A stretch of DNA of 56,178 nucleotides from Bacillota bacterium (GTDB lineage Bacteria > Bacillota > Clostridia > Oscillospirales > Oscillospiraceae). Under the pieces are notes generated by a model. That model was not told where the DNA came from. It made no database searches and saw only the letters and a list, made by a program, of their open reading frames with translations. Location of the stretch: contig JAJQHS010000001.1 in the NCBI GenBank assembly GCA_021199635.1, positions 1 to 56,178 on the forward strand. Direction: 5' to 3'. Made by a program: the position numbers and the translations under genes. This document shows positions 5,337 through 34,482 of this stretch, in pieces (within the stretch, counting starts at the first letter, position 1; the number at the start of each line of letters is the position of its first letter).

Positions 5337-7411
5337 CCCGTGTACGCGTAACCATTCTTCTCGCCCTTTTCTGCGTGATCCTTGGATTTTTCACCCTGCG
5401 GCTGTTTAATCTCCAGGTGGTGGCCAACGACGGCGACACCGACAACCGGAAGCTGTACTACACGGTCACCCGGGTCAAAGCCGCCCGCGGGGACATCCTG
5501 GACTGCAACGGCAATGTGCTGGTGACCAACCGCGCCACCTACGACCTGGTGTTCAACCACTACGTCATCAAGGACGCCACCGGCACCAACAATTACCTGC
5601 TCCAGCTGGTGCAGCTGTGCCGGGAGCTGGGTGTGGAGTATATCGACCATTTCCCGGTTTCGGAGGATGCGCCCTTTACTTACACCCTCAGCGACTATAG
5701 CAGCACCTGGCAGGGCTATTTCCAGGCGTACCTGCCCACCGTCGGCGGCGGCCTGGACTCGGACATCACCGCGCCCCTGCTGATGCGCAAGCTCCGGGAC
5801 GCTTACAGCATTCCGGAGGATTGGAGCGACGAGGATGCCCGGGCAGTGATCGGCCTGCGCTACGAGCTGGACCTGCGCAGCGACATCACCAATCTTTCCA
5901 ACTATGTATTCATGGAGGATGTGGACAACGACACCCTGGCCGCCATCCTGGAGCTGAATATCCCCGGGCTGAAAACCGAGGAATCCATGGTGCGGGTGTA
6001 TAACACCGAATACGCCGCCCATGTTCTGGGCTATATCGGCGCCATCACTGAGGAGCAGTGGGCAGAGACCTATAAGGAGCTGGACGGCTACTCCATGGAC
6101 GCGCTGGTGGGGCAGAGCGGCTTCGAGCTGGCGTTCGAGGAGTACCTCCACGGGGTGGACGGCTACCGGGTGGACGTGACCACCTCCGACGGCACCCTGG
6201 TGGAGCAGTACTACCGCACGGACGAGGACGGCAACGAGCAAGTCCCCGTGGCCGGGCAGAATGTGGAGGTCTCCATCGACATCAACCTGCAGGGCGTTGC
6301 CGAGGAGGAAATGGCGACCCTGTTCGCCCAGCTGCGCGCCCAGGACGAGGACGAGGACGGCGCGGATGCGGAAGGCGGCGCTGTGGTGGTGATGGAGGTC
6401 AAAACCGGGCAGGTGCTGGTATGCGCCAGCTATCCCACCTACGACCTGGCCAATTTCCGGGAGATTTACAGTGAGCTCCTGGAGCAGGACTACGCACCCA
6501 TGTACAACCGGGCGACCCAGGCGACCTATCCCCCCGGCTCCACCTACAAAATGTCCATGGTCATTGCCGGCATTGACTCCGGCGTGATCACCCAGTACAC
6601 CACCATTGAGGATGAGGGTGTATTCACGAAGTACGAGGGCTTCACCGCCAACTGCCTGTACTGGACTAATTATGGCTTGACCCACGGCTCCATTACCGCC
6701 GCCCAGGCGCTTTCCGTCTCCTGCAACTATTTCTTCTACGAATTGGGAGATATGGTTTCCCTGGAAGCCATGGACGCTACCGCCAAGGCTCTGGGCCTGG
6801 GGGAGAGCACTGGCATTGAGTTGGCGGAGAATATCGGTTACCGTGCCAACGCGGAAACAAAAGCATCCTTGTACTCCGGGGACGACGCCCGCTGGTACCG
6901 TGCCGACCAGATCATGGCGGCCATCGGCCAGTCCATCAACCGCTTCACCCCCATGCAGCTTTGCGTCTACACCAGCACCCTTGCCAATCGTGGCGTGCGG
7001 TACAAAGCCACCTTCCTGAGCCGCGTGCTGTCCTCAGGCTACGAATCCCTGGTCTACACCAACGAGCCGGTGATTGTCAGCACGCTGGAGATTTCCGACG
7101 CGGCATACCAGGCCTACAGCGAGGGAATGCGCCTGGCCGCCACAGAGGGCACCGCCAGGGGCTCCCTGGGAGACTTTGCCATTGCCGTAGCGGCGAAAAC
7201 CGGTACGGCAGAAACCTACAGCAGCGTTTCCGACAACGGTGCGTTCGTCTGCTACGCTCCGTATGACGACCCGGAGATCGCCATCGTGGTCTACGGCGAG
7301 AAGGCCGGCCACGGCACCACCATGGGCCAGATCGCAAGGGCGATCCTGGAAGCCTACTTCAGCGACGAGCTGTCCGGCAGCACATCCACCGGAGAAAACA
7401 GCGTCAGCTGA
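5324..7411 (+). CDS. mrdA: Penicillin-binding protein 2 (elongasome transpeptidase)
   Basis: A 695-residue class B penicillin-binding protein with one N-terminal membrane anchor (residues 8-28), a PBP dimerisation domain and a C-terminal transpeptidase domain. The active-site motifs are visible: STYK in YPPGSTYKM near residue 405, SCN in SVSCNYFF near 466 and KTG in AAKTGTAET near 626. It cross-links peptidoglycan during side-wall growth with MreC, MreD and RodA. GGAGGA precedes the ATG, which lies inside the mreD 3' end. A strong hairpin follows, so this is the last gene of the operon. Confidence 0.94.
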   Translation: MERITRVRVTILLALFCVILGFFTLRLFNLQVVANDGDTDNRKLYYTVTRVKAARGDILDCNGNVLVTNRATYDLVFNHYVIKDATGTNNYLLQLVQLCRELGVEYIDHFPVSEDAPFTYTLSDYSSTWQGYFQAYLPTVGGGLDSDITAPLLMRKLRDAYSIPEDWSDEDARAVIGLRYELDLRSDITNLSNYVFMEDVDNDTLAAILELNIPGLKTEESMVRVYNTEYAAHVLGYIGAITEEQWAETYKELDGYSMDALVGQSGFELAFEEYLHGVDGYRVDVTTSDGTLVEQYYRTDEDGNEQVPVAGQNVEVSIDINLQGVAEEEMATLFAQLRAQDEDEDGADAEGGAVVVMEVKTGQVLVCASYPTYDLANFREIYSELLEQDYAPMYNRATQATYPPGSTYKMSMVIAGIDSGVITQYTTIEDEGVFTKYEGFTANCLYWTNYGLTHGSITAAQALSVSCNYFFYELGDMVSLEAMDATAKALGLGESTGIELAENIGYRANAETKASLYSGDDARWYRADQIMAAIGQSINRFTPMQLCVYTSTLANRGVRYKATFLSRVLSSGYESLVYTNEPVIVSTLEISDAAYQAYSEGMRLAATEGTARGSLGDFAIAVAAKTGTAETYSSVSDNGAFVCYAPYDDPEIAIVVYGEKAGHGTTMGQIARAILEAYFSDELSGSTSTGENSVS

Positions 7412-17166: not shown

Positions 17167-17238
17167 AAAGCCCCCGCGATCAAGATCCGCATTGAGGCGG
17201 GCATGCGCCCAATACCACACCATTAAGCCATTAAAAAG

Positions 17239-17271
17239 CTGGACTTCACAAAATGTGAGGTCCAGTTTTTT
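17239..17271 (+). terminator. Terminator of aspS
   Basis: CTGGACTTCACA and TGTGAGGTCCAG pair around an AAA loop with one G-T type mismatch, followed by TTTTTTG. Its core is almost identical to the hairpin after thrS at 34428. Confidence 0.9.
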
Positions 17272-31267: not shown

Positions 31268-31678
31268 CTATCGTTTCCAGGCGTCGAGGAGCTTCTGCAG
31301 GATGCCGGTCAGCGCCCGGCGCTCCTCGTCGGACAGAGTGTCGAACAAATGCTCCTCCGGGTAGGCGGGGTGGTCCCGCTTGGCGGACGCACCCTTCTCC
31401 GTCAGCGTCAGCACCACCCGGCGGCGGTCCTCCGTGTCCTTCCGGCGGGTGATCAGTGCCTTATTCTCCAGCTTGGTCACCAGCTCGCTGACGGAGCCGG
31501 GCTGGATGGCCAGCCGCTCCTGGAGCGCCTTCTGGGTCATTGGCCCATTGTCATGCAGGATCCTCAGGACGGCATCCTGCTGCTGCCCCGCCCGGCTCTG
31601 GTGGTACAGGACGTGGCCGCACCTGTGCATGAGCCGGGTCAGATATTGGGTTTCCGTCAAACCCTCGGGTATTTCCAT
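31268..31678 (-). CDS. MarR family transcriptional regulator
   Basis: A 136-residue winged-helix regulator. MTQKALQERLAIQPGSVSELVTKLENKALITR (about 47-78) is the DNA-binding helix-turn-helix and the following KDTEDRRRVVLTLTEKG the wing with the conserved Asp-x-Arg. MarR proteins usually repress their own operon until a ligand binds. It heads the two exporter genes, with GGAGG before the ATG and a consensus promoter flanked by repeated boxes. Confidence 0.92.
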   Translation of the reverse strand: MEIPEGLTETQYLTRLMHRCGHVLYHQSRAGQQQDAVLRILHDNGPMTQKALQERLAIQPGSVSELVTKLENKALITRRKDTEDRRRVVLTLTEKGASAKRDHPAYPEEHLFDTLSDEERRALTGILQKLLDAWKR

Positions 31679-31702
31679 GCAATTTCCTCCAATTTTTCCT
31701 TT

Positions 31703-31751
31703 GGTACAGAAAGATTATAGTGCGATCGTCAGAAATTGTCAAGGTACAGAA
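31703..31751 (-). promoter_or_regulatory. Promoter of marR-ABC flanked by direct repeats
   Basis: On the minus strand TTGACA (31737-31742) and TATAAT (31714-31719) are both consensus with 17-bp spacing. TTCTGTACC occurs twice in the same orientation, abutting the -35 box (31743-31751) and 2 bp after the -10 box (31703-31711), exactly 40 bp apart. This is a probable MarR operator. Confidence 0.75.
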
Positions 31752-31845
31752 GCATTTTTTCGGAAAATCCGTTGCATTCGCAACAATTTTGCGTACAGGA
31801 ATTGTGAAATATGCCGAACCGGGACCGATCTCCGGGAAAAAAAGC

Positions 31846-31874
31846 TTGCCTATTTCCCGTTCCTGAACTATAAT
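31846..31874 (+). promoter_or_regulatory. Promoter of the HAD-GK gene
   Basis: TTGCCT and TATAAT with a 17-bp spacer, 27 bases before the start codon. Confidence 0.7.
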
Positions 31875-31901
31875 GGGGCAAACAGAAAGCGAGGGATTGC
31901 C

Positions 31902-33026
31902 ATGAACCGAAGATTCCGCCTGTCCACGGCGCTGGACATCGATGACCTGCTGATGGAGTGCATCCCCTACGCCATCGCCCTGGCCAATGAGAAATACCGC
32001 TTCGACCCGCCCCTGACCATCTACGAGGTGAACCGCTGGGGCAAGCTGGGCACCCGGGCGGACGCGATTTTCGAATTTTTCCAGGACCCGGATTTTTACC
32101 GGAACCAGTCCGTCATCCCCGGCGCCCGGGAATTTGTGGGCAAGCTGTCAGAGATGACGGAGGTTTTCGTCTCCACCTCCATCCCGCCGGAATTTATGGG
32201 CATCCGCGCCCAGAGGATCCTGTCGGAATTTCCGGAGATCCCCCCGGATCACATTTACATGGGCTCCCGGAAGGACAAAATCAACGTGGACATCCTGTTT
32301 GACGATGGGATGCACAACGTTTTCCAGTCCAACGCCGCCTATCCCATCCTCATGCGCCGCCCCTGGAACCAGGACGCCACAGGCATGCTGGCGGTGAACA
32401 ATTACGATGAATTCCTGAAGCTGGTGGAGGTCATCGCGGACAGCTACCGCCTGCGCACCGAGCCGCTGAACCTGGAAAACCCCAGCATTGTGGTGCTGGT
32501 AGGCCCCTCCGGCAGCGGCAAGACCACCATCGCCAAGCGGGTGCTGGAGAAGACCGACCGGTTCGAAAAGCTGGTCAGCTACACCACCAACGACCCCACC
32601 AGCCTGCAAAAGAACCAGTGGTACAATTATGTTCCCCTGGAGGAATTCCGCCAGATGTGCGAAAGCGGGGAGATTTTCGAGTCCACCATGTACGCCGGCC
32701 ACGGCTACGGCTCCAAGAAGGCGGACGTGGAGGCCATCCTCCGCCGCCATAAGCATGTTCTGACCACCATGGACATCTGCGGCGCCATGGCGCTGAAAAC
32801 CAATTTCCGGAACGTGATCACCATCTATATCCAGCGGGACAAGCGGAAGCTGCTGGCCTCCATCCTGCGGAAGAATTCCTCCATCGAGGATAAGGTGAAC
32901 CGGCTCATCGCCGTGGACACCGAGAAGCAGAACGAGGAAATCTGCGATTACTCCGTCCGCTTCGACACCTACGACCAGGCCGTGGCGCAAATCTGCGAGA
33001 TCCTGAAAATTCCGGCAAATGCATAA
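31902..33026 (+). CDS. Fusion of HAD 5'-nucleotidase and guanylate kinase-like domains
   Basis: A 374-residue two-domain protein. Residues 1-185 resemble the NT5C (5'(3')-deoxyribonucleotidase) HAD family: LDIDDL with Asp12/Asp14, STS near 91, Lys126 region GSRKDK and ILFDDG (Asp134-135). Residues 195-370 resemble guanylate kinase: P-loop GPSGSGKTT (201-209), LVSYTT, GYGSKKADVEAIL and a TMDICGAMALK strand like the usual DIDVQGA. The usual Arg-x-x-Arg-x-Gly-Glu GMP site after the TT is replaced by NDPTSLQKNQWY. So the kinase half may use another substrate or be regulatory. GAGGG precedes the ATG; the longer ORF is not used. A nucleotide-pool role is inferred. Confidence 0.78.
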   Translation: MNRRFRLSTALDIDDLLMECIPYAIALANEKYRFDPPLTIYEVNRWGKLGTRADAIFEFFQDPDFYRNQSVIPGAREFVGKLSEMTEVFVSTSIPPEFMGIRAQRILSEFPEIPPDHIYMGSRKDKINVDILFDDGMHNVFQSNAAYPILMRRPWNQDATGMLAVNNYDEFLKLVEVIADSYRLRTEPLNLENPSIVVLVGPSGSGKTTIAKRVLEKTDRFEKLVSYTTNDPTSLQKNQWYNYVPLEEFRQMCESGEIFESTMYAGHGYGSKKADVEAILRRHKHVLTTMDICGAMALKTNFRNVITIYIQRDKRKLLASILRKNSSIEDKVNRLIAVDTEKQNEEICDYSVRFDTYDQAVAQICEILKIPANA

Positions 33027-33548: not shown

Positions 33549-33572
33549 GGGCATCCCCTCCCCGCGCCCATA

Positions 33573-33644
33573 TTACCGGGGCGCCGGAGTCGAATGCAAG
33601 CCCTTTTCCTGCAAAAGCTTCTTTTCCTGTGCTGCAATATCCAT
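33573..33644 (-). CDS. Possible 23-residue small ORF before vanZ
   Basis: ATG at 33644, 9 bases after AAAGGA, opens a frame of 23 codons (MDIAAQEKKLLQEKGLHSTP...) ending in TAA 19 bases upstream of the VanZ site. The first 15 residues could form an amphipathic helix. It might be a leader or small protein; there is no further support. Confidence 0.3.
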   Translation of the reverse strand: MDIAAQEKKLLQEKGLHSTPAPR

Positions 33645-33774
33645 GGCGATCGGGTCCTTTCGTTGGGTTTAGCTGTGCTGACTTTGCTCTAACAAACGCA
33701 ATCGCCTTTTCTACCCACGGTCTTGCACCTATTGTAATGTTACGATTATTCTGCGTAATTTGCACAAATACCGC

Positions 33775-33803
33775 TTGACAATTATTTCGGCATTGGGTAT
33801 AAT
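33775..33803 (+). promoter_or_regulatory. Consensus promoter of the TPP riboswitch transcript
   Basis: TTGACA and TATAAT, both perfect, 17 bp apart. Transcription should begin near 33810, right at the first paired bases of the riboswitch. Confidence 0.85.
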
Positions 33804-33805
33804 AT

Positions 33806-33894
33806 CAATGCAAGGGAGCTCTCATAAGAGGGCTGAGAGGAGGGTGTTTCCCTCGACCTGACCTGATTTGGACAATGCCAACGTAGGGATGCGA
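33806..33894 (+). ncRNA. TPP (THI-box) riboswitch
   Basis: All conserved parts are present in order: the GGGAG strand of P2, a P3 hairpin GCTCTC/GAGGGC, the CTGAGAG element, TCCC closing P2, ACCTGAT, and GGACAATGCCAACGTAGGGA followed by a short P1 strand. It should bind thiamin pyrophosphate. No recognised thiamine gene follows; the next frame is a 54-residue membrane protein after a terminator. Confidence 0.93.
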
Positions 33895-33953
33895 AATAGA
33901 GTTTTTTCCTTCTAACCTTTCTTTTAAGTGACGGTAGGATGATACTTGAGTGG

Positions 33954-33984
33954 CCGCTTCTCTGCTTTGGGAGAAGCGGTTTTT
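33954..33984 (+). terminator. Terminator between TPP riboswitch and small ORF
   Basis: CCGCTTCTC and GAGAAGCGG (9 bp, 8-base loop) followed by TTTTTG. It lies 60 bases after the aptamer and 40 before the ATG, as expected for a ligand-controlled terminator. Confidence 0.85.
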
Positions 33985-34023
33985 GATTCATATGTCATTA
34001 ATTCTGACTTGGAGGATTTGAGA

Positions 34024-34188
34024 ATGAATAGTTTTGGTCCGGCACTGATGATTTCTGGCGCTATTATTTTGAGCGCTTGCATTATTGCGAATAGTGGGGC
34101 AATTGGTTGTTTAGGCATAGCGCTTCTCCTTTGGGGATGTATCGATAGTCTATACTTCCGCAAAAAGCATTGGGGTAACGAGAAATAG
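34024..34188 (+). CDS. 54-residue membrane protein downstream of TPP riboswitch
   Basis: A very small protein of two hydrophobic helices (about 5-22, GPALMISGAIILSACIIA, and 25-44, AIGCLGIALLLWGCIDSLYF) and a basic tail RKKHWGNEK. GGAGG lies 7 bases before the ATG. It is not recognised. Position after the riboswitch and terminator suggests expression when thiamin pyrophosphate is low, so it could assist thiamine or precursor uptake, or be left over from a lost thiamine operon. The surroundings (33600-34430) are noticeably more AT-rich than the rest of the window. A hairpin with TTTT closes the unit. Confidence 0.6.
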   Translation: MNSFGPALMISGAIILSACIIANSGAIGCLGIALLLWGCIDSLYFRKKHWGNEK

Positions 34189-34284
34189 TTATGTACTTGT
34201 CTGGCAAGCCCTCAAAAGCAAAAATATTGTGATAAGCTCCGATATCGTAATGGATAAACATTGTCAGGTCTGGCTTGATCGCAG

Positions 34285-34327
34285 AAAAGGGCGCCACTTA
34301 CCCCGACGGGTAGGCGGTGCCCTTTTG
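34285..34327 (+). terminator. Terminator of the riboswitch-controlled unit
   Basis: AAAAGGGC and GCCCTTTT pair, with an inner TACCC/GGGTA stem, ending in TTTTG. Confidence 0.65.
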
Positions 34328-34420
34328 TGCATGATAGTGTACGTTGAGAATGGCTAAAACTCCAATGAAATGATGAAAATGTGCTTAGCAAGCAGCGGCA
34401 GGCATTGCCTGGAAAAGGCC

Positions 34421-34464
34421 ACAAAAACCGGACCTCACATTTTTTGTGAAGTCCGGCATTTTTT
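34421..34464. terminator. Terminator of thrS (bidirectional)
   Basis: CCGGACCTCACA and TGTGAAGTCCGG form a 12-bp stem. On the minus strand TTTTTGT follows (thrS direction), on the plus strand CATTTTTT. The core matches the aspS terminator. Confidence 0.88.
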
Positions 34465-34482
34465 GACGGAATGGCGTTTTTG

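Follow-up and report, generated by a model that had tools for sequence, protein, structure and literature searches.

We put the probability at roughly 0.6 that positions 33775-33985 of the window (i.e., the whole stretch of DNA that was analysed, 56,178 nucleotides in length) constitute an intact thiamine-salvage leader that became orphaned from its operon, with an ORFan occupying the slot of the first gene, which is missing. As such, the locus has the appearance of a control region that was left behind, rather than that of a proven new family of thiamine proteins. Specifically, the leader would be a "TPP = off" attenuator of the thiW-thiM-thiE or thiD-tenA salvage-operon type, of which the salvage genes would have been lost in this lineage (or which would have arrived without them), and an unrelated short ORF would now occupy the first-gene position and might be translated. 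This reading builds on the computed promoter, aptamer and terminators, on the potential for pairing and the resemblance to salvage-operon leaders, and on the lack of any above-cut-off ThiW, ThiM or ThiE in the genome, from which we infer the switching of the leader, the loss of the operon and the translation of the ORF.

Promoter, aptamer and predicted attenuation

The leader opens with a sigma-70-type promoter (TTGACA-17-TATAAT; 33775-33803, + strand) that matches the consensus at 12 out of 12 positions. It runs into a TPP riboswitch aptamer (33802-33907, + strand) that was recognized over its full length by the Rfam covariance model RF00059 (55.0 bits, E-value of 4.4e-8, gathering cut-off of 54.3 bits), this being the sole Rfam family exceeding its cut-off in the window. 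This modest score is no indication of decay, since the window agrees with 106 aligned TPP aptamers of relatives at each of the 34 columns conserved to 90% or more. The core nucleotides of RF00059 (i.e., CUGAGA, ACCUGA and CGUAGGGA) are likewise all present. The original prediction of a complete TPP aptamer with its own perfect promoter was thereby confirmed.

The predicted terminator downstream of the aptamer was also recovered, as an intrinsic terminator at 33952-33985 (+ strand) with a hairpin (33952-33981) of -19.8 kcal/mol. Folding moreover revealed that the 3′ strand of the aptamer (33878-33893, + strand) can pair with the 5′ arm and loop of this terminator (33955-33970, + strand), yielding an antiterminator of 14 pairs and -20.5 kcal/mol. 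A pairing as good was obtained for 0.8% of shuffled arms and for 0.17% of the 22-mers of the window, and for none of the 60 shuffles in a separate shuffle test. When the growing transcript was folded, the free fold of RNA 33809-33972 was 10.1 kcal/mol better than the fold in which the aptamer was forced, and once the terminator was complete (33980 onward), both folds were equal and the combination of aptamer and terminator was the best fold. The computed expression platform of the window can thus alternate with the aptamer (terminator vs. antiterminator), and it is plausible that the layout of the leader is that of the usual "TPP = off" transcription attenuator.

At low TPP, the 3′ strand of the aptamer would pair with the 5′ arm and loop of the terminator, by which the latter would be blocked and RNA polymerase would transcribe the downstream ORF (34024-34188) up to a second terminator (34285-34326). 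In the presence of TPP, the folded aptamer would retain its 3′ strand, so that the hairpin at 33952-33981 would form and transcription would end. The second terminator is a strong hairpin 3′ of the ORF, with an A-tract and a T-tract (34285-34326, + strand; -31.4 kcal/mol, z of -6.2), in agreement with the earlier claim that the ORF has its own terminator, and may be used by both strands. An M-box considered at 34253-34378 was rejected (19.2 bits vs. a cut-off of 44). On the thrS side, a further terminator hairpin (34423-34463; GCCGGACTTCACAAAAAATGTGAGGTCCGG) has a near copy elsewhere in the window (17233-17270, 88%), and the two are probably instances of a repeated terminator type.

Relationship to thiamine-salvage leaders

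TPP riboswitches were found in 91 of the 99 related genomes, and the two aptamers closest to that of the window both head a thiW-thiM-thiE operon, i.e., locus L036 of genome G022 (92% over 87 nt) and, next, locus L034 of genome G059 (86% over 92 nt), the operon genes of such key loci being named by Pfam matches. A search of the GTDB genome collection with a degenerate pattern for this aptamer subtype yielded 12 genome records, among which are the contigs of G022 and G059, and in all 12 the aptamer is followed by thiamine-salvage genes. These genes were thiW or thiM in 10 of the records, a tenA-like gene in L184, and thiD-tenA together with a transporter in L187.

The leaders of these thiW-thiM-thiE and thiD-tenA operons (L036, L034 and L176-L187, from Oscillospiraceae and other Clostridia) share the aptamer subtype and the GCAAGGGAG motif with the window, as well as its promoter layout. 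The thiW leaders of both L036 and L034 have this same promoter arrangement, and in these two loci thiW starts at a similar distance past the terminator as the ORF does in the window. Moreover, the window terminator aligns with that of the L187 thiD-tenA leader over approximately 36 nt (score of 31 vs. 15.2 +/- 2.0 for shuffles), and the other leaders gave no significant alignment to the window beyond promoter and aptamer (p-values of 0.06-0.7). By aptamer subtype and promoter layout, the window leader is therefore of the salvage-operon type, but it lacks the operon itself, since it is followed by an ORF without Pfam or NCBIfam match and then by thrS on the opposite strand. It also differs in its platform, which has one hairpin whereas those of L036 and L034 have two. 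Furthermore, most relatives favour an antiterminator with the 5′ strand of the aptamer (GCAAGGGAG with CUUGC in the terminator), whereas the window, as the only one among the leaders compared, uses the 3′ strand, so that this antiterminator detail is not conserved.

In an uncultured Clostridia MAG (L183, 4183-4241), an aptamer of the subtype is situated immediately upstream of thiM and thiE in a locus that lacks thiW, which is possibly an intermediate step in the erosion of a salvage operon. Tandem TPP riboswitches approximately 150 nt apart were also observed in several relatives (G043:C159 (L087), G060:C20 (L094), G034:C16 (L095), G062:C83 and G093:C34), those of G043:C159 being located at 6146-6253 and 6297-6402.

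Thiamine genes in the genome and behind related riboswitches

TPP riboswitch regulons comprise thiamin biosynthesis genes and transporters of thiamin or its precursors (PMC3766115). The window leader resembles a typical TPP riboswitch (THI element, RF00059) in its full-length aptamer above the cut-off, its conserved columns, its 5′ promoter and its 3′ terminator, but is not followed by any gene for thiamine biosynthesis, salvage or transport. The genome from which the window stems (1.95 Mb, about 95% complete) carries two TPP riboswitches, of which the other (C101) lies before a ThiT gene (Pfam Thia_YuaJ); no further thiamine uptake gene was identified with confidence. ThiE was not found in the genome, and neither ThiM (best 24.5 bits vs. 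a cut-off of 27) nor ThiW (best 24.4 bits vs. 30.3) scored above the cut-off, so that the leader is present without its usual genes, with the proviso that at about 95% completeness a missing thi gene could sit in a gap.

A survey of the ORFs downstream of approximately 100 TPP riboswitch loci of relatives showed by inspection that most lead to ThiT-like proteins, and others to ThiW, ThiS-like, ThiD-like or YkoF-like proteins, the key ones being supported by Pfam matches as well. None of these loci had an ORF like that of the window, so that the search for TPP riboswitches before short membrane ORFs in relatives returned no similar case, and no description of a small membrane ORF of such kind behind a TPP riboswitch was found in the open-access literature. 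A locus from the same genus (L035; G040:C15, 2308-2900) carries a TPP riboswitch followed by a 134-codon ORF without Pfam match, of which the first approximately 20 residues appear ThiS-like by eye (MVKINGEELNIAGKTVAEYL) before the sequence diverges. This could be another case of a disrupted TPP locus, and broken TPP loci may therefore occur in the genus.

The 54-codon ORF

The ORF downstream of the leader spans 54 codons (ATG at 34024 to TAG at 34188, + strand), is strongly hydrophobic and has no known relative. The good GGAGG site noted earlier is indeed present as a Shine-Dalgarno sequence (34013-34017, + strand), six bases before the start codon. However, since thiW of relatives is preceded by GGAGGAATT as Shine-Dalgarno sequence, with a comparable spacing from the terminator, the site may be inherited and lends weak, non-independent support to a gene. 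The proposal of a tiny two-helix protein holds with regard to a short hydrophobic ORF but not with regard to two helices, since the high hydropathy of residues ~3-43 is not interrupted by a deep dip, and AlphaFold (run without alignment) predicts one long helix (mean pLDDT of 80, pTM of 0.34).

No credible match to the ORF was obtained in 136 same-genus genomes, in samples of 401 family and 394 order genomes, or in Pfam, NCBIfam, PHROGs or PDB. Phage and plasmid collections yielded no relative, and neither did the GTDB and viral collections, in scans that reach close relatives only. Weak matches turned up in the genus, family and order searches (E-values of 0.003-0.1), and the six of them that were examined were rejected as chance hydrophobic matches or stop-broken frames. 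A truncated ThiW, ThiM, ThiE or ThiT was rejected as well (the best alignment had an E-value of 0.03 and covered 17 residues encoded by the opposite strand), as was a phage or holin gene (PHROG 4237 at a sub-threshold E-value of 0.056, and no phage, plasmid or viral relative). Like ThiW, ThiT and other thiamine ECF substrate-binding proteins, which are membrane proteins under TPP riboswitches, the ORF is hydrophobic and located behind such a riboswitch, but ThiW/ThiT-type proteins are about 170-220 aa long with clear Pfam matches in the loci read, whereas the ORF is 54 aa long and bears no sequence relation to them. Since the ORF has no relative in any search, and given that the aptamer subtype elsewhere always precedes salvage genes, the new TPP-regulated protein family of the original prediction is not supported, and the lack of a conserved ORF in relatives speaks against it at the species level.

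Nevertheless, the ORF might, with a rather low though appreciable probability, encode a real lineage-specific small membrane protein under TPP control that aids thiamine uptake or a TPP-related membrane process. The GGAGG spacing is good, ThiT is the sole confident thiamine uptake gene in the genome, and the leader, the Shine-Dalgarno sequence and both terminators are intact, as expected of a useful transcript; that the aptamer is intact might reflect continuing selection on something downstream, which counts against an orphaned leader. With the ATG fixed, moreover, an open frame of 54 codons persists in 4.8% of dinucleotide shuffles; of these, 5.9% reach the hydrophobicity of the ORF and 0.7% show two such peaks as well, which gives a combined probability of about 0.0004 to 0.003 for length and hydrophobicity features in tests that were chosen after the ORF had been seen. 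However, next to the absence of relatives and the perhaps inherited Shine-Dalgarno sequence, composition argues against a real protein: GC by codon position is flat in the ORF (42/45/42) vs. about 60/40/83 in neighbouring genes, and its codon index is 0.24 vs. 0.62-0.76 in clearly framed neighbours. A more elaborate scenario, which we consider improbable, is that the salvage riboswitch was co-opted after loss of thiW-thiM-thiE, with a newly arisen, TPP-repressed small membrane protein at the old start that would modulate thiamine uptake (e.g., via ThiT) in a thiamine-dependent gut bacterium. Should the ORF prove real, the riboswitch would have outlasted its operon and taken control of a new gene.

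Genomic context

In line with the claim that the riboswitch does not precede thiC, a thiamine kinase or a transporter, Pfam matches identified a VanZ-like gene upstream and thrS downstream of the locus, both on the other strand, so that no thiamine gene is adjacent. The other ORFs of 33560-34480 on both strands have no Pfam match, and no remnant of thiW, thiM or thiE was detectable in 33896-34482. The vanZ-thrS arrangement was absent from the 29 relative thrS loci examined, in which thrS itself is conserved. No relative with the operon at vanZ-thrS was found that would point to its deletion at this site.

The AT-rich surroundings had been taken to suggest either a recent arrival or a remnant, of which the latter fits better. 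It is very improbable that riboswitch and small gene were recently imported from another organism or a mobile element, even though 33600-34450 is low in GC (vs. 60% overall), the ORF differs in composition from native genes and weak, sub-threshold holin matches exist (E-value of 0.056). Indeed, the window contains seven runs below 46% GC, six of them besides the leader region, and because AT-rich stretches are this common, AT-richness is weak evidence for recent arrival; matches in phage, plasmid or viral collections and flanking direct repeats are absent as well. Also improbable is a non-functional residue, in which the aptamer would have begun to drift once the genes were lost, the ORF would be due to chance and regulation would be absent. 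The absence of the cognate genes from the genome, the ORFan of non-native composition, and the same-genus L035 locus with its ThiS-like start and then unrelated sequence would all be compatible with such a residue, but signs of decay are absent, given the 34 out of 34 conserved columns, the perfect promoter, the strong terminator and the antiterminator pairing.

The locus provides a clean case of an intact metabolite switch parted from its usual genes, and urges caution against naming protein families by what follows a riboswitch. Elsewhere in the window, 31380-33026 forms a single frame matching both 5′-nucleotidase (NT5C) and guanylate kinase domains.
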